Source: Streptomyces qinzhouensis
Lineage (GTDB): Bacteria > Actinomycetota > Actinomycetes > Streptomycetales > Streptomycetaceae
Length of the DNA stretch: 64,000 nt
Reading direction: 5' to 3'
Assembly: GCF_007856155.1 (NCBI RefSeq)
Contig: NZ_CP042266.1
Coordinates: 3,782,001 to 3,846,000 of the forward strand
Shown: positions 33,431-45,552 of the stretch, in pieces
Position numbering within the stretch: position 1 is the first letter of the stretch
Layout of the letters: each line of letters opens with the position of its first letter
Program-made: the position numbers and the translations under genes
Notes under the pieces: generated by a model
The model's database searches: none
Seen by the model: the letters and a program-made list of their open reading frames with translations, nothing else
What the model was told of the DNA's origin: nothing

Positions 33431-34873
33431 CTAACTCTGATCCGCCCACCACTCAGTGAGTGCCTTGACAGCGTCGTCGTGCTCCATCGGCCCGTGCTCC
33501 AGCCTCAGCTCCAGCAGATGCGCATACGCCTTGCCGATGACCGGGCCGGGGCCGATCCCGAGGATCTGCTGAATCTCGTTGCCATCGAGGTCGGGCCGGA
33601 TGGCATCCAGCTGCTCCTGCTGCTGCAACTGCTCGATGCGCTCCTCCAGACCGTCATAGGTACGGGAGAGGGCAGCCGCTTTCCGCTTGTTCCGGGTGGT
33701 GCAGTCCGAGCGGGTCAGCTTGTGGAGCCGAGCGAGCAGCGGTCCGGCGTCGCGTACATAGCGGCGCACCGCCGAGTCGGTCCATTCACCGTCCCCGTAC
33801 CCGTGGAAGCGCAGATGCAGCTCCACGAGCCGGGAAACATCCCTCACCAGCTCATTGGAGTACTTGAGCGCGGTCATCCGCTTCTTGGTCATCTTGGCGC
33901 CCACCACCTCGTGGTGGTGGAAGGAGACCCGGCCGTCCTTCTCGAAGCGGCGGGTACGCGGCTTGCCGATGTCATGGAGCAGTGCGGCGAGCCGGAGCAC
34001 CAGGTCCGGGCCTTCGCTCTCCAGGGCGATCGCCTGCTCCAGCACGGTCAGGGAGTGCTCGTACACATCCTTGTGCCGGTGGTGCTCGTCGCTCTCCAGC
34101 CGCAGGGCGGGCAGCTCGGGAAGGACCCTGGCGGCCAGCCCGGAATCGACGAGCAGGGCCAGCCCGGTACGGGGGTGCCGGGAGAGCAGCAGCTTGTTCA
34201 GCTCGTCCCTGACCCGCTCGGCGGAGACGATCTCGATGCGCTCGGACATCTCCGTCATGGCGCGGACGACCTCGGGCGCCACCTCGAAGTCGAGCTGGGC
34301 CGAGAAGCGGGCGGCGCGCATCATCCGCAGCGGATCGTCCGAGAAGGACGCCTCGGGGGTGCCCGGAGTGCGCAGCACCTTCGCCGCGAGGTCCTCCAGA
34401 CCGTTGTGCGGGTCGATGAACTCCTTCTCCGGGAGAGCGACGGCCATCGCGTTCACCGTGAAGTCCCGGCGGACCAGATCGTCCTCGATGGAGTCGCCGT
34501 AGGACACCTCGGGCTTGCGGGAGGTTCGGTCGTAGGCCTCGGAGCGGTAGGTGGTGATCTCGATCTGATAACCGCTCTTCTGCGCCCCGACGGTGCCGAA
34601 GGCAATTCCGACGTCCCAGACCGAATCCGCCCAGGGGCGGACGATTCCCAGGATGTCCTGGGGGCGGGCGTCCGTGGTGAAGTCGAGGTCGTTGCCGAGC
34701 CGGCCGAGGAGCGCGTCCCGTACCGAGCCACCGACCAGGGCAAGGCGGAAGCCCGCTTCCTGGAAGCGGCAGGCGAGATCGTCCGCGACGGGGGCTACCC
34801 GCAGTAGCTCCGTCACCGCGCGGCGTTGTACCTGATTCAGTGCGGAGGGAGTGTCTTCATTGGCGTTCGGCAC
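33431..34873 (-). CDS. cca: CCA-adding tRNA nucleotidyltransferase
   Basis: 480 residues from GTG 34873 (PNANEDTPSALNQVQRRAVTELL). The nucleotidyltransferase head has LALVGGSVRDALLGRLGNDLDFTTDARP, with the DxD metal ligands, and RRDFTVNAMAV. The tRNA-binding middle follows, then an HD domain (LAALLHDIGKPRTR, FHHHEVVGA). It builds or repairs the 3' CCA end of tRNAs. In mycobacteria the equivalent gene occupies the same place near murJ. The open frame extends a further 878 codons upstream antisense to the next gene; that extension is not real. Confidence 0.95.
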   Translation of the reverse strand: MPNANEDTPSALNQVQRRAVTELLRVAPVADDLACRFQEAGFRLALVGGSVRDALLGRLGNDLDFTTDARPQDILGIVRPWADSVWDVGIAFGTVGAQKSGYQIEITTYRSEAYDRTSRKPEVSYGDSIEDDLVRRDFTVNAMAVALPEKEFIDPHNGLEDLAAKVLRTPGTPEASFSDDPLRMMRAARFSAQLDFEVAPEVVRAMTEMSERIEIVSAERVRDELNKLLLSRHPRTGLALLVDSGLAARVLPELPALRLESDEHHRHKDVYEHSLTVLEQAIALESEGPDLVLRLAALLHDIGKPRTRRFEKDGRVSFHHHEVVGAKMTKKRMTALKYSNELVRDVSRLVELHLRFHGYGDGEWTDSAVRRYVRDAGPLLARLHKLTRSDCTTRNKRKAAALSRTYDGLEERIEQLQQQEQLDAIRPDLDGNEIQQILGIGPGPVIGKAYAHLLELRLEHGPMEHDDAVKALTEWWADQS

Positions 34874-35038
34874 AACAGAGAAGGGTACGTCCCCCGGGCC
34901 CGCGGAGGTCCCCCGAAGCCCGTGACGATCATGTGTGGCAGTCCGCGGCACTTCCGCCCGGCGCACCTCGTTACCATGCGTGGACGCAATGAGCGACAGC
35001 GACCTGACGACAGCAGACGACGAGGGACGGACGAGCGC

Positions 35039-37396
35039 GTGGCCGAGGCGGCAGACTTCCGGAGGATGACCCCCGCGCCTGCCCGTCGGTGGCTCCGCAG
35101 GGCCGTCTGTGCCCTCGCCACCGCCCCCATGATCGCGGGGCTTCTCGGAGCCTCCGCGCCGGTCGCTCAGGCCGCTCCGGCCGCCTCGAGCCCCCGCTCG
35201 GTCGATGTGAGTCTCACCACAGTCTCCCCGAGCGTGCCGGAGGAGGACGGGAATCTCACCGTATCCGGGACGGTGGTCAACAAGACCAAGGGACCGGTCA
35301 CGAGCCCCGAGATCGACCTCCATGTGGGGCAGCCGCTGAACGGCCGTACCGGGATAGACCGGGCCGCGAAGCGAACGGGGTACGACAGAAGCGTCGACGG
35401 CCCGGCCGTGGGCGGCAAGTACACCGTGAAGCTGCCCTCCCTGGCCCCGGGGATCAGCCGGGACTTCACCGTGTCGGTTCCCGTGGAGGAGCTCGGGTTC
35501 GGCAAGGAGGGCGTCTACCAGCTCGGGGTCAGCCTCTCGGGGCGCAGCCGGGACGCGTCCTACCGACAGGTTCTGGGCATCGAACGGACCTTCCTCCCCT
35601 GGCAGCCCGACACCCTGGAGAAGCGGACCCGCCTCACCTACCTCTGGCCGCTGATCTCCTCCACGCATCTGACGTCCGAGGTCGGCTCCGACGAACAGCG
35701 CACCCCGGTCTTCGAGGACGAGTCGCTGGCCAAGGAGATCGCCCCCGAGGGCCGGCTGGGACAGATGGTGTCCCTGGGCCGGGAGCTGCCGGTCACCTGG
35801 GTCATCGACCCCGACCTTCTGGCCACCGTGGACGCCATGACCCGGAACTACCGGGTCAAGGACGGCCGGGGCGGCGAGGAGACCGTGCCGGGCCGGAACC
35901 AGGCGGTGGCCAAGCAGTGGCTCAGCTCCCTGGAGACCGCGATCCAGAACCGCAAGGTGATCGCCCTCCCGTACGCGGACCCGGATCTGGCGTCCCTGGC
36001 CCACCGCGGCACCCAGGTCTCCGGCACCCTCGGACGGCTGGTGGACGCCACCGAGGTGGCGAGCCTGACCGTGGAGACGATCCTGCACGTCAAGCCGTCC
36101 GTGGACTTCGCCTGGCCCGTCGACGGGGCGATCGACTCGTCGATCGTGAACGTCGCCACTTCCGCGGGCGCCGACCATGTGATCGCCCGCAGCGACAGCC
36201 TCCGCGACGACCTTCCGTACACGGCCTCGGCCGCCCGCCCGATCGGCGGCGGGACCACCGCGGTGGTCGCCGACGCCCGGCTGTCGAAGGCGTTCGAAGG
36301 GAACATGCTGGACAGCGGCGAGTCCACCCTCGCCGTGCAGCGCTTCCTGGCGCAGACCCTGGCGGTGGCCCGCCAGGGCGAGGCCCCGGGAGCCCGCAGC
36401 ATCGTCGTGGCCCCCCAGCGGATGCCCACCACATCGCAGGCCCAGACCATGGCGCGCGCCCTCCAGGGGCTCGCCGGACAGCGCTGGACCCAGCAGATCG
36501 ACCTGCTCGCGGCGGCGGAGGCCAGGCCGGACAGCGGGGCGACCCGCCAGGTGCCGCCGGGGTCGCAGTACCCCGAGAAGCTGCGCAAGCGCGAGCTGCC
36601 CGAGAGTGCTTTCGAGGAGATCCGGGACACCCAGGAGACCCTCGACAACTTCACACTCATCCTCACCGCCCGGGACCGGGTGGAGCCCCCGTTCTCCCGG
36701 GCGATCGACCGGGAGATGTCCACGTCGTGGCGGGGTCATCGCCAGGCTGCCGAGACCTACCGCGCCGGCGTGCGCGAGAACCTCGGGCGGCTCGTGGGCG
36801 AGGTCCAGCTCATCGAGAAGTCGCAGATCACCCTCTCGGGCCGCAGCGCCACCATCCCGGTGACCGTCCAGAACCGGCTGGTCCAGGACATCGACCATCT
36901 GGTTCTGCGGCTCAGCTCCGACAACGGAGCCCGGCTCAGCCTCGACGGCGGCCGGGGAGTCGCCGAACGCCCGATCGAGATCAAGGGCGGTCACAGCCAG
37001 TCGGTGAAGTTCGACGCCAAGGCCAACGCCAACGGCCAGGTGCGGATGACGGCACAGCTCTACACCGAGGACGGCAAGGTCTACGGCCCGGCCATGCAGT
37101 TCACGGTGAAGGTCTCCGAGGCCACCCCCACCGTGCTGCTGGTCATCGCGGGCGGCGTCCTGCTCCTGGTGCTCGCCGGGGTCCGGATGTACACCCAGCG
37201 CAAGCGGGCGGCGGCCCGTGACACCCCCGCCGACGGCCCGGGCACCGAGCCCGGCGGGGACGGCGACCCCGACGGTACGGAACCCCCCGGGAGCAGCGGC
37301 GACGGCGCCGATCCCGGGCAGCCGAGTGACCCGACACCGGACACCCGTCCGGAAAGCGGCAACGGATCGCGCGCGGGTGAGAAAGTGGACCGTTGA
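35039..37396 (+). CDS. DUF6049-type membrane-anchored envelope protein
   Basis: About 785 residues. N-terminal signal peptide (RRWLRRAVCALATAPMIAGLLGASAPVAQA), a large extracytoplasmic region with immunoglobulin-like stretches (VDVSLTTVSPSVPEEDGNLTVSGTVVNKTKGPV, residues ~55-85; a second near 600-700), then one membrane helix (PTVLLVIAGGVLLLVLAGVRMY) and a short Gly/Pro/Asp tail. Function unknown; the same family precedes murJ in mycobacteria (Rv3909-type), suggesting a role with lipid II export. GTG 35039 is the chosen start; ATG 35066 has GGAGG too close. It lies 44 bases before murJ, same operon. Confidence 0.82.
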   Translation: MAEAADFRRMTPAPARRWLRRAVCALATAPMIAGLLGASAPVAQAAPAASSPRSVDVSLTTVSPSVPEEDGNLTVSGTVVNKTKGPVTSPEIDLHVGQPLNGRTGIDRAAKRTGYDRSVDGPAVGGKYTVKLPSLAPGISRDFTVSVPVEELGFGKEGVYQLGVSLSGRSRDASYRQVLGIERTFLPWQPDTLEKRTRLTYLWPLISSTHLTSEVGSDEQRTPVFEDESLAKEIAPEGRLGQMVSLGRELPVTWVIDPDLLATVDAMTRNYRVKDGRGGEETVPGRNQAVAKQWLSSLETAIQNRKVIALPYADPDLASLAHRGTQVSGTLGRLVDATEVASLTVETILHVKPSVDFAWPVDGAIDSSIVNVATSAGADHVIARSDSLRDDLPYTASAARPIGGGTTAVVADARLSKAFEGNMLDSGESTLAVQRFLAQTLAVARQGEAPGARSIVVAPQRMPTTSQAQTMARALQGLAGQRWTQQIDLLAAAEARPDSGATRQVPPGSQYPEKLRKRELPESAFEEIRDTQETLDNFTLILTARDRVEPPFSRAIDREMSTSWRGHRQAAETYRAGVRENLGRLVGEVQLIEKSQITLSGRSATIPVTVQNRLVQDIDHLVLRLSSDNGARLSLDGGRGVAERPIEIKGGHSQSVKFDAKANANGQVRMTAQLYTEDGKVYGPAMQFTVKVSEATPTVLLVIAGGVLLLVLAGVRMYTQRKRAAARDTPADGPGTEPGGDGDPDGTEPPGSSGDGADPGQPSDPTPDTRPESGNGSRAGEKVDR

Positions 37397-37440: not shown

Positions 37441-39726
37441 ATGAACGCGCCGTACGACGGTGACCGCGGTCAGGGCGCCGGGACGAACCCGGCGGACCAG
37501 CCGCCACCGCCGCAGCCCCCGTATGCCCACGACCCGGCCCAGCACCCCTACGCCCACGACGCGGGCGCCCAGCCCTACGCCTACGACCCCGCCCAGTACC
37601 AGCAGCAGGCCCCCTACCCGTACGACCAGGCGGGGCAGCAGCCCGGCTACGACCCCGTCCACGATCCGTATCTGCGGGACGCCTACGCCCAGGACCCCTA
37701 CCGGGCCCAGGACCTGTCCGCCCAGGACCCGGTGGCCGAGGCGCTCTACGACCGCGCCTCCCACCCTCCGCCGCCGCCCGGCACCTACCCCGACCAGCAG
37801 CCGCTCTACCAGCAGCCCCCGCCCTCGGAGTACGCGCCGGACCCCCGGGTCTGGGCCCACACCCCGCCTCCGGAGCCCGCGGGCCCGTCCCGTCATCTGC
37901 CGTACGGCGACGACGCCCGGACGACGCAGTACACCGGAGTCGACGACCTGGTCAGCAACGCGGCCGACGAACAGCCGCAGCAGGACGCCTTCGCCCATCT
38001 CTTCCGGGACCAGCAGGGCACCGGCAAGACCGTCCCGGCCCCCGCGCCCGAGCCGCTCCCGGCCCCGGCCGCCCCCAAGCGGTCCGGGGGACGGGTGGCC
38101 GGTCTGGCGAAGTCCAGCGCGGTCATGGCCGCGGGCACGATGGTCTCCCGCCTCACCGGTTTCCTGCGCAACCTCGTGATGGCCGCGGCCATCGGTGTCG
38201 GCGTCCTCAGCGACACCTACCAGGTCGCCAACGTCCTACCGACGATGATCTACGTCCTGGTCGGCGGCGGGGCCCTGAACGCGGTCTTCATCCCCCAGCT
38301 CGTGCGGGCGATGAAGAACGACGACGACGGGGGCGAGGCCTATGCCAACCGGCTGCTCACCCTGGTGGTCGTGCTGCTGGCGGGCGTCACCGTGTTCTGT
38401 GTGGTGGCCGCGCCGTTCCTCGTCACCATGATGTCGCCGACGATCGCCTCCGACCCGCAGAAGAAGGAGGTGGCCGTCGCTTTCGCCCGCTACTGCCTGC
38501 CCACCATCTTCTTCATGGGCATCCATGTGGTGCTCGGGCAGATCCTCAACGCCCGTGGCCGCTTCGGAGCGATGATGTGGACCCCGGTCCTCAACAACGT
38601 GGTGATCATCGCCTCGTTCGCCGCCTTCATCTGGGCCTTCGGCAGCTTCACCGAATCGGGCGTCAACACCGCCACCATCACCCCGGAGGGCATCCGCCTC
38701 CTCGGCCTCGGCACCATGCTCGGACTGGTGGTCCAGGCAGTGGCGATGCTCCCGTACCTACGGGACGCGGGCTTCCGGATGAAGTTGCGGTTCGACTGGC
38801 GCGGCCAGGGACTGGGCAAGGCCGCCGGGCTCGCGAAGTGGACCCTCTTCTTCGTCCTCGCCAACCAGCTCGGCATGATCGTCGTCACCCAGCTCGCCAC
38901 CTCGGCGGGAGCGACCGCCGAGAAGCACGGCTTCACCGGTACCGGTATCACCGCCTACAACTACGCCCTGTTGCTCTGGCAGCTTCCCCAGGCCATCATC
39001 ACGGTCTCCGTGATGACCGCCGTCCTGCCCCGCATCTCCCGCTCCGCCCACGACGGCGACGCCGCCGCGGTCCGGGACGACATCTCCTACGGGCTGCGCA
39101 CCTCCGCCGTCGCGATCGTGCCCTCGGCCTTCGCCTTCTTCGCCCTCGGTGTCCCGATGGCGGGCCTGATGTACGCCGGATCGGGCGCCGAAGGCGCCAG
39201 GAACATCGGATTCACTCTGATGGCCTTCGGGCTCGGACTGATTCCGTACTCCGTGCAGTACGTCGTCCTCCGCGGCTTCTACGCCTACGAGGACACCCGG
39301 ACGCCCTTCTACAACACCGTCATCGTCGCCCTGATCAACGCGGGCGCGGCCGGTCTCAGCTTCGTTCTGCTGCCCGCCCGCTGGGCGGTCGTCGGCATGG
39401 CCGCCTCCTACGGCCTGGCCTACATGATCGGAGTCGGTGTCGCCTGGAGCCGGCTGCGGAAGCGGCTGGGCGGCGATCTGGACGGCGCGCACATCATGCG
39501 CACGTACACCAGGCTGTGCATCGCCTCGCTGCCCGCCGCGATCCTCGGCGGCGGCGCGGCCTTCGGCATCATCAAGCTCCTCGGCAGCGGTGCTCTCGCA
39601 TCCCTGGCCGCGCTCACCGGTGGTGGTGTCGTCCTCCTCGGAGTGTTCTTCCTCGCGGCTCGCCGGATGCGCATCGAAGAGCTGAACTCCATGGTCGGCA
39701 TGGTCCGGGGGCGGCTCGGCCGCTGA
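37441..39726 (+). CDS. murJ: Lipid II flippase MurJ (MviN family)
   Basis: 761 residues. The C-terminal ~540 residues hold the MurJ fold, with about 14 membrane helices from residue ~220: KSSAVMAAGTMVSRLTGFLRNLVMAAAIG, GGALNAVFIPQLVRAM, and LLLWQLPQAIITVSVMTAVLPRIS. MurJ moves lipid II to the outer face for peptidoglycan assembly. The first ~215 residues are a cytoplasmic Pro/Gln/Tyr-rich tail with repeats of PYAHDPAQ and PYAYDPAQY type. GAGGTGGGG precedes ATG 37441. The next gene encodes a pseudokinase that in mycobacteria is fused to the MurJ C-terminus. Confidence 0.95.
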   Translation: MNAPYDGDRGQGAGTNPADQPPPPQPPYAHDPAQHPYAHDAGAQPYAYDPAQYQQQAPYPYDQAGQQPGYDPVHDPYLRDAYAQDPYRAQDLSAQDPVAEALYDRASHPPPPPGTYPDQQPLYQQPPPSEYAPDPRVWAHTPPPEPAGPSRHLPYGDDARTTQYTGVDDLVSNAADEQPQQDAFAHLFRDQQGTGKTVPAPAPEPLPAPAAPKRSGGRVAGLAKSSAVMAAGTMVSRLTGFLRNLVMAAAIGVGVLSDTYQVANVLPTMIYVLVGGGALNAVFIPQLVRAMKNDDDGGEAYANRLLTLVVVLLAGVTVFCVVAAPFLVTMMSPTIASDPQKKEVAVAFARYCLPTIFFMGIHVVLGQILNARGRFGAMMWTPVLNNVVIIASFAAFIWAFGSFTESGVNTATITPEGIRLLGLGTMLGLVVQAVAMLPYLRDAGFRMKLRFDWRGQGLGKAAGLAKWTLFFVLANQLGMIVVTQLATSAGATAEKHGFTGTGITAYNYALLLWQLPQAIITVSVMTAVLPRISRSAHDGDAAAVRDDISYGLRTSAVAIVPSAFAFFALGVPMAGLMYAGSGAEGARNIGFTLMAFGLGLIPYSVQYVVLRGFYAYEDTRTPFYNTVIVALINAGAAGLSFVLLPARWAVVGMAASYGLAYMIGVGVAWSRLRKRLGGDLDGAHIMRTYTRLCIASLPAAILGGGAAFGIIKLLGSGALASLAALTGGGVVLLGVFFLAARRMRIEELNSMVGMVRGRLGR

Positions 39727-39862: not shown

Positions 39863-41599
39863 GTGGCGGAACGTAGCACGGCTGCCGTCGACGTGGCCGA
39901 CAACGGCGGGAACGAACCGCCGACCGCGCAGGCGGACGAGGCCACGGCCGACGGCTCTGCCGGATCCGAGAAGACCGCGGAACTGCCCGTACCCGGCGAC
40001 CAGGACACCGAGGACGCCGCGGAGAAGGGCGAGGAGCCCGTCCTTGCCGCGCCCGAGTTGCACAGCGGCCACAAGCTCGCCAAGCGTTACCGCCTCGAAG
40101 AGTGCATCACCCGACTGGACGGTTTCAGCAGTTGGCGTGCCGTGGACGAGAAGCTGCGCCGGGCGGTCGGGGTCCATCTGCTCCCCGCCGGCCACGCCCG
40201 GGCCCGCTCCGTGCTCGCAGCCGCCCGCTCCGCCGCGCTCCTGGGCGATCCCCGGTTCGTCATGGTGCTGGACGCGGTCGAGGAGAACGATCTCGTCTAT
40301 GTCGTTCACGAGTGGCTGCCGGACGCCACCGAGCTGACCACCCTGCTGGCCATGGGCCCCCTGGAACCGCATGAGGCCTACCGTCTCGTCGATCAGCTCT
40401 CCCAGGCCATGGCCGCGGCCCACCGCGAGGGACTCTCCCACCTCAAGCTCACCCCCGGCGCCGTGCTGCGCACCTCCAGCGGCCAGTACCGCATCCGCGG
40501 CCTCGCGGTGAACGCCGCACTGCGTGGTATCACCGCCGACCGCCCGCAGCGCACCGACACCGAGTCGATCGGCGCTCTGCTCTACGCCGCCCTGACCCAG
40601 CGCTGGCCGTACGAGAACGACGCCCACGGCCTCTCGGGCCTGCCCAAGGGCGTCGGACTGCTGCCTCCCGACCAGGTACGGGCCGGTGTGCACCGGGGGC
40701 TCTCCGAACTCTCCATGCGCGCCCTGGTCAACAACGGCGCCACGGCGTCCCGCCAGGACCCCCCCTGCACCACTCCTGAGGAGCTGGTCAAGGCCGTCGC
40801 GGAGATGCCGCGCATCAAGCCGCCAGAGCCCGCGTTCGCCGCCCCGCCGGAGTATCAGCGCACCACCTACCAGCAGGGCAGCTACGGACGTCCCGGCGCC
40901 GTCCGGCCGGGTGGGCCCCTGCCTCCGCACTCGGTTCCGGTTCCGCCCGCGCCGCTGGAGAGCCGGGCCGGCAAGGCACTCAAGTGGACGGTCGCCGCGC
41001 TCCTGATCGCCGCCCTGGGGTTGGGTAGCTGGCAGATCTCGGAGGAGCTGCTGGACCGCGACAAGAAGGGCCCGGGCTCCACGCCCGAGGCCCCGCCCCA
41101 AGGCGGCGACGAGAAGCCGAAGGCCCCGGCCGAACCGCTCACCATCGACCATGCCTCGGAGTTCAGGCCCAGCGGCTCCGGCATACAGCAACACGAGGCA
41201 CCCCTCACCGTCGACGGCGACCCCGGGACGTCCTGGGTGACACCCGAGTACCGGAACTATCCGAACTTCGGGAACTACCCCAACCGCCGCCAGGGCAGCG
41301 GAATCATCGTCGACCTCGGCACCGTACGGGAGGTTTCCGGGATCGATGTCGACCTGTACCGCACGGGGCACAAGGCGGAAGTACTGGCGGCGGGAGAGAA
41401 CGCCTCGGACCCGGATTCGCTCATGGACTTCGACCGGCGGCTCACCCCCGAGCAGACCGTGGGACAGCGGCTCAAGGCGGACTTCGACACTCCCACCCGC
41501 ACCCGCTACGTACTGATCCGTATCACCGAACTCCCGCCCGCCGCAGAGGCGAACCGCTATCGAGGCGGTATCTCGGAGATCAGGATCCTCGGGCGCTGA
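39863..41599 (+). CDS. Membrane pseudokinase, separate counterpart of the mycobacterial MviN C-terminus
   Basis: 578 residues from GTG 39863 with GGGGAGG upstream. Residues ~70-310 have a kinase-like layout (LAKRYRLEECITRLDGFSSWRAVDEKLRRAVGVHLL, LVYVVHEWL, LSQAMAAAHREGLSHLKLTPGAVL), but the catalytic residues are gone: the VAVK lysine is His105, HRD is HLK (193-195), the Asn of the catalytic loop is Val, and DFG is GLA (213-215). One membrane helix lies at ~375-393. The outer domain (~430-578) resembles a discoidin-like carbohydrate-binding fold (DGDPGTSWVTPEYRNYPNFG, GIIVDLGTVREVSGIDVDLY). It is predicted to scaffold or regulate MurJ. Confidence 0.88.
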   Translation: MAERSTAAVDVADNGGNEPPTAQADEATADGSAGSEKTAELPVPGDQDTEDAAEKGEEPVLAAPELHSGHKLAKRYRLEECITRLDGFSSWRAVDEKLRRAVGVHLLPAGHARARSVLAAARSAALLGDPRFVMVLDAVEENDLVYVVHEWLPDATELTTLLAMGPLEPHEAYRLVDQLSQAMAAAHREGLSHLKLTPGAVLRTSSGQYRIRGLAVNAALRGITADRPQRTDTESIGALLYAALTQRWPYENDAHGLSGLPKGVGLLPPDQVRAGVHRGLSELSMRALVNNGATASRQDPPCTTPEELVKAVAEMPRIKPPEPAFAAPPEYQRTTYQQGSYGRPGAVRPGGPLPPHSVPVPPAPLESRAGKALKWTVAALLIAALGLGSWQISEELLDRDKKGPGSTPEAPPQGGDEKPKAPAEPLTIDHASEFRPSGSGIQQHEAPLTVDGDPGTSWVTPEYRNYPNFGNYPNRRQGSGIIVDLGTVREVSGIDVDLYRTGHKAEVLAAGENASDPDSLMDFDRRLTPEQTVGQRLKADFDTPTRTRYVLIRITELPPAAEANRYRGGISEIRILGR

Positions 41600-41751
41600 C
41601 ACCGGTCCGGCGGGCGGCTGTGCCCGCCGCCCGGTGGCGGCCCGGGGGATTCTCCGGCGCTCTGCCTCTCCCCGCGGGAATCGTGATAGACAGACCGGGC
41701 CGGAGCTGATGCTTCCAGGTACCGAACGGGACCGACCAGAGGGTGGAGGCC

Positions 41752-42456
41752 GTGACGACGGGGGCGTCCCACACAGTCAGCGACTCCGAGCTTCTGGCCC
41801 GCCATGTCGCGGGGCACCCCGACGCCTTCGGTGAACTGGTCCGGCGCCACCGCGACCGGCTCTGGGCCGTCGCCCTGCGCACCCTGGGGGACCGCGAAGA
41901 GGCCGCGGACGCCGTACAGGACGCCCTGGTCTCCGCCTTCAGAGCCGCCCACACCTTCCGGGGCCAGTCCGCCGTCACCACCTGGCTGCACCGCATCACG
42001 GTCAACGCCTGTCTCGACCGGGCCCGGAAGACCGCTTCCCGGAAGACCTCACCCGTCGAAGACACCGAACGGCTGGAGCAGCTGCTCGAACCCCACGAGT
42101 CCGCGGAAGCACCGGCGGAGCGCCGGGATCTGAACCGCGAACTGCTGGCCGCCCTGGGCAAGCTTCCGGCGGAGCAGCGGGCCGCCCTGATCCTGGTGGA
42201 CATGCAGGGGTACTCCGTCGCGGAGGCCGCGAAAGTCCTCGATGTACCCCCGGGAACGGTGAAAAGCCGCTGCGCACGGGGCCGGGCCAGGCTGCTCCCA
42301 CTCGTCACCCATCTGCGCGGTGGCTCCGGGGATAGCGATGATCTCGACCGGGGAAGGAACCGGACGCCGGGGGCAGCCGTCCCACCGGCGACGGGCCGAA
42401 GGAACGCAGGGCCGACCGATCCTGCTGCTGTGAAGGGCGGAGGTGGACGCACGTGA
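41752..42456 (+). CDS. sigM: ECF RNA polymerase sigma factor SigM
   Basis: 234 residues. Region 2 (ELLARHVAGHPDAFGELVRRHRDRLWAVALRTLGDREEAADAVQDALVSAFRAAHTFRG) and region 4 (LLAALGKLPAEQRAALILVDMQGYSVAEAAKVLDVPPGTVKSRCARGRARLL) are clear. A disordered tail of ~40 residues follows. By synteny (murJ upstream, anti-sigma and trxB downstream) this matches actinobacterial SigM. GTG 41752 has AGAGG nine bases upstream; GTG 41743 is an alternative. The stop codon overlaps the anti-sigma start (GTGA), indicating translational coupling. Confidence 0.9.
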   Translation: MTTGASHTVSDSELLARHVAGHPDAFGELVRRHRDRLWAVALRTLGDREEAADAVQDALVSAFRAAHTFRGQSAVTTWLHRITVNACLDRARKTASRKTSPVEDTERLEQLLEPHESAEAPAERRDLNRELLAALGKLPAEQRAALILVDMQGYSVAEAAKVLDVPPGTVKSRCARGRARLLPLVTHLRGGSGDSDDLDRGRNRTPGAAVPPATGRRNAGPTDPAAVKGGGGRT

Positions 42457-44520: not shown

Positions 44521-44853
44521 GTGGCCGGCGCGCTGAAGAATGTAACGGATGCCACCTTCGAAGAAGAGGTCCTCAAGAGCGACAAGCCCGTTCTGGTGGA
44601 CTTCTGGGCGGCCTGGTGCGGCCCGTGCCGTCAGATCGCGCCGTCCCTTGAGGCCATCGCCGCCGAGCACGGCGACAAGATCGAGGTCGTCAAGCTCAAC
44701 ATCGACGAGAACCCGGCCACCGCTGCCAAGTACGGCGTCATGTCCATCCCGACCCTGAACGTCTACAAGGACGGCGAGGTCGCGCAGACGATCGTCGGTG
44801 CCAAGCCGAAGGCCGCCATCGTTCGCGATCTGGAGAACTTCCTCGGCGAGTGA
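44521..44853 (+). CDS. trxA: Thioredoxin
   Basis: 110 residues from GTG 44521. The active site is WAAWCGPCRQIAPSLE, with the cis-Pro in MSIPTLNVYKDGE. It is the dithiol reductant for ribonucleotide reductase, methionine sulfoxide reductase and other targets. An excellent AAAGGAGG sits eight bases upstream. It forms an operon with trxB and is followed by a parS and a strong hairpin. Confidence 0.98.
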   Translation: MAGALKNVTDATFEEEVLKSDKPVLVDFWAAWCGPCRQIAPSLEAIAAEHGDKIEVVKLNIDENPATAAKYGVMSIPTLNVYKDGEVAQTIVGAKPKAAIVRDLENFLGE

Positions 44854-44872
44854 ACGGCGCTCAGGCGCCCAT

Positions 44873-44886
44873 GTTTCACGTGAAAC
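44873..44886. promoter_or_regulatory. parS site after trxA
   Basis: Perfect GTTTCACGTGAAAC with flanks that extend the palindrome to 20 bp (44870-44889), directly before the terminator. Confidence 0.95.
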
Positions 44887-44890
44887 ATGA

Positions 44891-44922
44891 CGGAGGGCCC
44901 ACCCCATCGGGTGGGCCCTCCG
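44891..44922. terminator. Bidirectional terminator between trxA and the GNAT gene
   Basis: CGGAGGGCCCACCC (44891-44904) pairs perfectly with GGGTGGGCCCTCCG (44909-44922) across a 4-base loop, between convergent genes. Confidence 0.9.
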
Positions 44923-44934
44923 TTGTTCGTCAGG

Positions 44935-45552
44935 TCAGAGCGGTCGCAGTACCGGCTCCTTCTGTACCGCACCGAGCAGCCGGTCCAGCGCCTGTTCGAC
45001 GTCCTCTTTCCAGGAGAGCGTGTTTCTCAGTTCCAGCCTCAGCCGCGGATACGAGAAGTGCGGGCGGACCGTCTTGAACCCCACTGCGGTCAGATGGTCG
45101 GCCGGGAGGAGGCAGGCGGGCTCCTGCCAGCGGGCATCGCCGAAGGCCTCGATGGCTTTGAAGCCCCGGCGCAGTACATCCTTCGCGACGGTCTGCACCA
45201 GGACCCGGCCGAGCCCCTGCCCCTGAAACCCCGGGTTGACCCAGGACATCATCAGCTGGACGGCGTCCGGTGATACCGGACTGGTCGGGAAGGCCAGAGA
45301 GCGTGGCACATAGGCCGGCGGGGCGTAGAGAACGAAACCGACCGCAGCCTCATCGACATAGACGACCCGGCCACAGGATCCCCACTCCAACAAGACCGCG
45401 GAGATCCATGCCTCTTTCTCCAGCTCGGGCCGGCCCGCCTTCACCGCGGCATCACCGCTGACCGAATCCAGCTCCCAGAAGACACAGGAACGGCAGCGCT
45501 TGGGGAGGTCCGACAGATTGTCCAGGGTGAGGGGTACCAGCCGACGCCCCAT
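44935..45552 (-). CDS. GNAT-family protein with N-terminal Cys motif
   Basis: 205 residues. The GNAT core includes VQLMMSWVNPGFQGQGLGRVLVQTVAKDVLRRGFKAIEAFGD, with the acetyl-CoA loop GFQGQGLG. Ahead of it is KRCRSCVFWELD (about residues 18-29), a Cys-x2-Cys next to Phe-Trp-Glu, suggesting a metal or redox site. No specific substrate can be inferred. It lies 48 bases downstream of parB on the same strand and converges on trxA, matching S. coelicolor SCO3888 in position (from memory). It may be co-transcribed with parAB. Confidence 0.82.
   Translation of the reverse strand: MGRRLVPLTLDNLSDLPKRCRSCVFWELDSVSGDAAVKAGRPELEKEAWISAVLLEWGSCGRVVYVDEAAVGFVLYAPPAYVPRSLAFPTSPVSPDAVQLMMSWVNPGFQGQGLGRVLVQTVAKDVLRRGFKAIEAFGDARWQEPACLLPADHLTAVGFKTVRPHFSYPRLRLELRNTLSWKEDVEQALDRLLGAVQKEPVLRPL

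Follow-up and report, generated by a model that had tools for sequence, protein, structure and literature searches.

How bacteria throttle the export of lipid II is an open question, and the murJ locus of Streptomyces qinzhouensis poses it in a particular form: what does a receptor-like protein with a dead kinase domain do beside the lipid II flippase? The locus lies in a 64,000-nucleotide stretch of contig NZ_CP042266.1 (positions 3,782,001 to 3,846,000; the window), in which a separate gene starting 136 bp 3' of murJ encodes three parts: a pseudokinase domain, a single membrane helix, and a CBM32-like outer domain (Table 1). An initial annotation had described these parts, with Lys-to-His, HRD-to-HLK, and DFG-to-GLA replacements and a discoidin-like outer domain, and had likened them to the module carried by MviN of mycobacteria; our analysis bears out both the description and the likeness. 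Its interpretation as a whole is partly supported. We think it fairly probable that the protein is a receptor-type pseudokinase that acts as a glycan-sensing regulatory partner of MurJ.

The kinase fold of the window protein has lost the catalytic Lys, the HRD Asp, the Asn of HRDxxxxN, and the DFG Asp. Its activation loop is shortened; in the alignment, it has nothing to match the SPE region of PknB. No Pfam match to PASTA repeats was found in the protein up to an E value of 1; it thus differs from PASTA receptor kinases of the PknB type both in lacking catalytic residues and in carrying a CBM32-like domain where those have PASTA repeats. Because phmmer gave no significant match to the outer domain in the PDB, a fold search was needed, and this returned CBM32 and chitosan-binding modules (4ZZ5 and 4ZXE), which are similar in fold and only 17 to 18% identical. 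The outer domain had no match in any of the 24 other kinases scored from this genome, and no relative was found on viral contigs.

Judged by its sequence, the gene is a homologue of the pseudokinase plus outer domain of MviN (Rv3910; PDB 3OTV, 3OUK, 3OUN, and 3UQC; class ActPs3), a conclusion that follows from the kinase-domain tree together with a shared hinge Trp, outer domain, and place at murJ. The tree was built from 73 rows and 282 columns with five active kinases of this genome as outgroup, and it places MviN and the split kinase domains in one clade of 47 rows with support of 100/98; the mycolata form a long branch (1.57) inside this class clade. A first, quick tree of 90 rows gave the same clade (Shimodaira-Hasegawa-like approximate likelihood ratio test, 99) and is superseded. 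A tree of the outer domain (139 columns) was too short, with most deep forks open, and we base no claim on it. The Streptomyces outer-domain profile matches three fused proteins, L086 to L088, at 4e-18, 2e-17, and 6e-20; these are probably mycobacterial, since L086 matches the Rv3910 structures at 504 bits and the three share a family code. Literature numbering corresponds to the 3otv chain residue plus 678, and F724, W789, and T947 are F, W, and T in the L086 alignment. W789 is the hinge Trp, which fills the ATP pocket in MviN according to the available part of PMC12599244. It occurs in 44 of 49 dead members of the class (41 of 46 class rows and all 3 mycobacterial rows), in 2 of 7 partly degraded relatives, and in none of the 22 intact relatives, the 4 members of families f13 and f15, or the 8 active kinases of this genome. 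What weighs against the homology is that PknB and PknA outscore MviN by sequence and by fold. We therefore rejected MviN as the nearest solved relative by score, and the case is carried by the tree and the shared parts; the structural comparison proposed in the initial annotation upholds the kinase fold and does not single out MviN. The two modules are alike in their three dead motifs, the hinge Trp, the single helix, the carbohydrate-binding-like outer domain, the tie to MurJ, and the clade. They differ in that the Streptomyces pseudokinase is not one chain with MurJ, that Streptomyces MurJ lacks the C-terminal linker that binds CwlM in Mycobacterium tuberculosis, that T947 has no clear equivalent, and that Ser90 stands at the place of F724 (81 of 81 Streptomyces sequences). 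The same source, in its available part, describes ActPs3 pseudokinases as mainly actinobacterial and often endowed with a C-terminal membrane helix.

Conservation within Streptomyces argues that the dead domain is under selection. The set examined comprised the best 80 of 362 relatives found among 402 stretches, all from Streptomyces, and in all 80 loci the gene lies downstream of murJ in the same orientation, with a gap of 107 to 293 nt between the two. Mean pairwise identity, computed from 600 random pairs, is 0.91 for the kinase domain (the highest of the stretches measured), 0.86 for juxtamembrane residues 319 to 343, 0.84 for the membrane helix, 0.81 for the MurJ core, 0.70 for the N-terminal extension of MurJ, and 0.46 for the outer domain. 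A dead kinase domain that is more conserved than the flippase core points to constraint, not decay. His105 (81 of 81) and His193 are invariant in Streptomyces, as are Thr334 and Tyr336 in the juxtamembrane segment (81 of 81 each), with Thr335 in 76 of 81. Such conservation, and the two His residues in particular, would also fit an unusual enzymatic activity, such as another nucleotide transfer, retained despite the lost motifs; with all four catalytic residues gone from the window protein and a Trp of the kind that fills the MviN pocket at its hinge, we regard this as very improbable. Elsewhere in the S. qinzhouensis genome, two further MurJ-family genes occur (C1:7600213-7601616, locus L002; C1:5029547-5031070, loci L003 and L004), and the pseudokinase was unmatched in these short loci. 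A second, close murJ in another Streptomyces genome (L139, G322) also lacks the pseudokinase gene; locus L140 of that genome has it.

The initial annotation had presented the split module as a matter for Streptomyces, and this did not hold. A class-wide MurJ search covered 196 genomes, with a match in 195, and was complemented by a phylum-wide search; 60 loci were hand-picked to span families, 56 of them in class Actinomycetes (three from Streptomyces, L138 to L140) and four in other classes (L135, L136, L137, and L143). The pseudokinase is a separate downstream gene in 46 of the 56 class loci and is fused to MurJ in 7 (L086 to L088, L114 to L116, and L134), so that it is linked to murJ in 53, split and fused forms falling in the one clade. 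A separate gene is thus what most of these class loci have. Two loci, L120 and L139, have no pseudokinase gene, and in L085, which is neither split nor fused, the remnant resembles an N-lobe and lies in an open frame that contains masked bases. The outer domain is missing from the kinase open frame in 3 of the 46 split loci (L094, L105, and L111); L105 is cut by a contig end, and in L111 the domain sits in another frame. A whole-protein profile at 1e-60 matched in 99 of 118 class genomes, some matches covering the kinase part only; of the 19 genomes without a match, 10 belong to family f73, which has small genomes, 5 to f81, and one each to f2, f59, f76, and f83. Among 58 motif rows (the window, four further Streptomyces proteins, and the 53 linked class loci), Lys is kept only in L129, the HRD-place Asp only in L111 (as HGD), and the DFG Asp in six, and none has the full catalytic set. 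For 120 listed proteins, the names, where the sources supply one, are mostly "serine/threonine protein kinase" or "protein kinase family protein," and such names conceal the loss of the catalytic residues.

Position beside murJ could, in principle, reflect an old locus order, with the pseudokinase serving the downstream extracytoplasmic function (ECF) sigma and anti-sigma genes or another envelope pathway. The ECF sigma factor gene, which we take to be sigM, is next in the same direction in Streptomyces; it was matched in all 80 loci and lies within 750 bp of the pseudokinase gene in 79. In 11 split class loci, moreover, 1.5 to 2.9 kb separates murJ from the kinase domain, with an NlpC/P60 hydrolase gene in between in all three loci checked by Pfam (L095, L100, and L104). 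We nevertheless consider this explanation improbable: MurJ is the partner in the fusions found, and linkage to a MurJ-family gene recurs in families f7, f43, f13, f15, f18, and f29 of other classes. In L095, L100, and L104, a gene for a small one-helix protein precedes the NlpC/P60 gene, and eight more class loci have similar gaps. In family f67 (L105 and L106), a tandem pair of murJ genes stands ahead of the pseudokinase gene.

The fusions themselves provide the strongest indirect support for contact with MurJ. A search with a fused protein of family f69 returned 44 proteins, including ones from Jiangella, Haloactinopolyspora, Phytoactinopolyspora, Tessaracoccus, Microlunatus, Cellulomonas hominis, and Rhodococcus, and the order MurJ, kinase, outer domain was seen in 15 of 16 long proteins examined (P0279 has no MurJ match). 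Fusions of this order occur in the mycolata, the Jiangellaceae, and Tessaracoccus/Microlunatus, along with Cellulomonas P0280 and P0285; Jiangella, Tessaracoccus, and Microlunatus are not mycolata. Fused and split rows are intermixed on the kinase-domain tree, where 12 fused rows call for at least five state changes, or three without P0280 and P0285, whose places lack resolution. These counts cannot separate fusion from fission, and fusion is the likelier direction because the split state is far commoner. Repeated joining of the same two proteins is indirect evidence of a physical partnership and suggests, from comparative data, that the separate pseudokinase also touches MurJ.

We also considered a tie between fusion and CwlM, such that cwlM would be expected only where MurJ has a linker. 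In M. tuberculosis, CwlM is a partner of the MurJ linker, which is essential; growth does not require the MviN pseudokinase, for which a role in down-regulating flipping has been proposed (PMC6180346, in the part available). We rejected the tie. For the count, a locus was called informative if it extended 1,500 bp beyond trxA or if cwlM was present, a rule that favors finding cwlM, and 114 of 182 stretches qualified. Split lineages can also have cwlM after trxA (f65, f61, three of four f76 loci, and others), and of three Jiangella-type fused loci, two gave no cwlM, which likewise counts against the tie. At the Streptomyces locus, cwlM was not found in any of 78 informative stretches (76 Streptomyces loci, L140, and the window); in the window, positions 44853 to 44935 were without the gene that follows trxA in many other class families. 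The sole Amidase_3 match of this genome is a distant protein with 26% identity.

Does the Streptomyces protein then work exactly as MviN does, with PknB phosphorylating the pseudokinase tail, FhaA binding the phospho-Thr, and MurJ being slowed? Several parts of that circuit are at hand. An fhaA gene, encoding an N-domain and an FHA domain, is situated 47 kb from the pseudokinase gene (at about C1:3870976); its cluster also includes genes for a PASTA kinase, a PP2C phosphatase, a transpeptidase, and an FtsW/RodA protein, and the VSRRH and STNG stretches of the FHA domain align with M. tuberculosis FhaA. Of the 81 Streptomyces sequences, 29 have Thr at position 324 and 59 have it at position 326, a few residues past the place expected for T947. 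That residue sits directly after the kinase domain, in DRTE or DRTD in L086 to L088 and in QKTE in Rhodococcus P0283. Its place in the window protein, about 316 to 322 by residue count in a loosely aligned tail, holds Thr or Ser in none of the 81 sequences, and the window protein has Ala at both 324 and 326, its first Thr after 304 being Thr334. What Streptomyces conserves in its stead is the juxtamembrane segment YQRT(T)YQQG, of which YQRT is invariant. As T947 has no clear counterpart, the FHA step put forward in the initial annotation is not simply transferable to Streptomyces, even with an fhaA gene that has conserved FHA residues 47 kb away, and full identity with the mycobacterial scheme is unlikely.

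Relatives outside the class suggest where the protein came from. A phylum-wide profile search of 197 genomes gave full-length matches adjoining murJ in other classes, and 40 phylum matches were fetched, 20 mostly for adjoining a murJ and 20 mostly for not adjoining one. In family f7, a receptor kinase directly follows murJ in 11 of 12 sampled genomes (L177 to L187); in the twelfth (L196), the kinase lies in a 5-kb stretch without MurJ. Lys, HRD, DFG, and an APE-like motif are intact in each of the 12 kinase domains, and in 10 of the 11 genomes with linkage, no murJ copy comes closer to the window MurJ than the linked one, which is narrowly second in G179. The MurJ-linked f7 kinases resemble the Streptomyces protein in domain order, CBM32-like outer domain, and place after murJ and differ in their intact catalytic residues; known here from sequence alone, they are possible dedicated lipid II export kinases. 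Their source labels are no more specific than "protein kinase." Other families are mixed: f43 has one intact member (L195) and three partly degraded ones (L188 to L190; Lys kept, HGN or HGD, DFA), f18 (L137 and L194) keeps Lys with HRN or HGS and DFS, in f29 L199 is intact and L202 degraded, and the kinase domains of f13 (L192 and L203) and f15 (L191 and L193) are dead. Where the stretch gave no MurJ match (18 loci), every kinase domain retains Lys and a catalytic Asp (in L201 as HGD). No such kinase gene stands beside murJ in f13 loci L136 and L143 or in f39 locus L135.

On the tree, f13 and f15 are neighbors of the 47-row class clade (95/80 and 99/88), and the presence of the full set of four catalytic residues requires five or more changes of state. 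The deepest branching order is unsure, since one outgroup row (og_L151) falls among the other-class rows. The simplest history begins with an active receptor kinase linked to MurJ, whose catalysis was lost, partly more than once, while its position stayed; the intact f7 kinases after murJ seem to point to a sensor kinase, apparently active, that went dead without leaving the locus. We lean slightly toward an order in which a catalytically competent, MurJ-dedicated receptor kinase with a CBM32-like sensor at first monitored lipid II export in Actinomycetota, became a dead allosteric subunit of the flippase in the ancestor of Actinomycetes, before or early in the diversification of the class, and was later fused to MurJ several times. 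MviN would then be a late, unusual branch of an older two-gene system.

The regulatory role that we favor thus starts from homology, architecture, dead motifs, linkage, constraint, and the fused and intact relatives, from which we infer a sequence of events. The outer domain would bind a glycan derived from the wall or from lipid II, and the single helix would relay its state to the cytoplasmic side. There, the dead kinase domain, incapable of phosphorylation itself, may contact MurJ and act on it as an allosteric clamp or a scaffold, and it may offer a docking and phosphorylation platform, with juxtamembrane Thr334 and Thr335 as candidate sites, to an active kinase of the PASTA type. Control would run from the pseudokinase to the flippase, and the outcome would be lipid II export matched to wall synthesis.

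Around the pair of genes, an 856-aa DUF6049 protein is encoded just 5' of murJ (window positions 34826 to 37396); its gene was matched in 74 of the 80 Streptomyces loci, the other six having short upstream stretches. The Tyr/Gln/Pro-rich region that the initial annotation assigned to a tail of MurJ does exist and is located at the N terminus. It contains conserved short segments before the first helix, around DDARTTQ and DAFAHLxRDQ.

Table 1. Features of the murJ-pseudokinase locus, with positions in the window
Feature	Position	Strand	Remarks
murJ, lipid II flippase, 761 aa	37441..39726	+	Pfam MurJ, E 3.7e-114; NCBIfam TIGR01695 above cut-off
Tyr/Gln/Pro-rich N-terminal extension of MurJ, about residues 1-205	37441..38055	+	Upstream of MurJ domain match (residues 247-707)
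Pseudokinase/membrane helix/CBM32-like protein, 578 aa, separate gene	39863..41599	+	
Pseudokinase domain, residues 66-318	40058..40816	+	
His105 where ATP-binding Lys is expected	40175..40177	+	81/81 Streptomyces
Hinge Trp151, equivalent of MviN W789	40313..40315	+	Trp in 81/81 Streptomyces
HLK replacing HRD, residues 193-195	40439..40447	+	
GLA replacing DFG, residues 213-215	40499..40507	+	
Conserved juxtamembrane YQRTTYQQGSY, residues 331-341	40853..40885	+	
Single membrane helix, residues 369-398	40967..41056	+	Helix in predicted model; hydropathy
Outer domain, CBM32/discoidin (galactose-binding-like) fold, residues 432-577	41156..41593	+	
ECF sigma factor gene, next downstream	41743..42456	+	Pfam Sigma70_r2 and r4_2 above cut-off

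The available text of PMC10166564 reports regulation of this kind only in Mycobacterium and the extended pseudokinase domain only in makers of arabinogalactan, and it names S. coelicolor MurJ for comparison in a figure legend; that of PMC12599244 describes other ActPs3 proteins as lacking a carbohydrate-binding domain. Both statements, as those portions give them, are at odds with the fused and split forms described here, the first because relatives in Jiangella and Microlunatus have the fused state. Neither portion mentions a separate gene after murJ, and among open-licence PMC literature we found no title or abstract that treats the split gene or the Streptomyces protein. The repeated joining with MurJ suggests that Streptomyces, and much of the class, has a separate and genetically accessible regulator of lipid II export. 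In contrast to the situation in mycobacteria, this regulator could be deleted in Streptomyces without touching the flippase, and the intact kinases of family f7 may serve as a model for its active ancestor.
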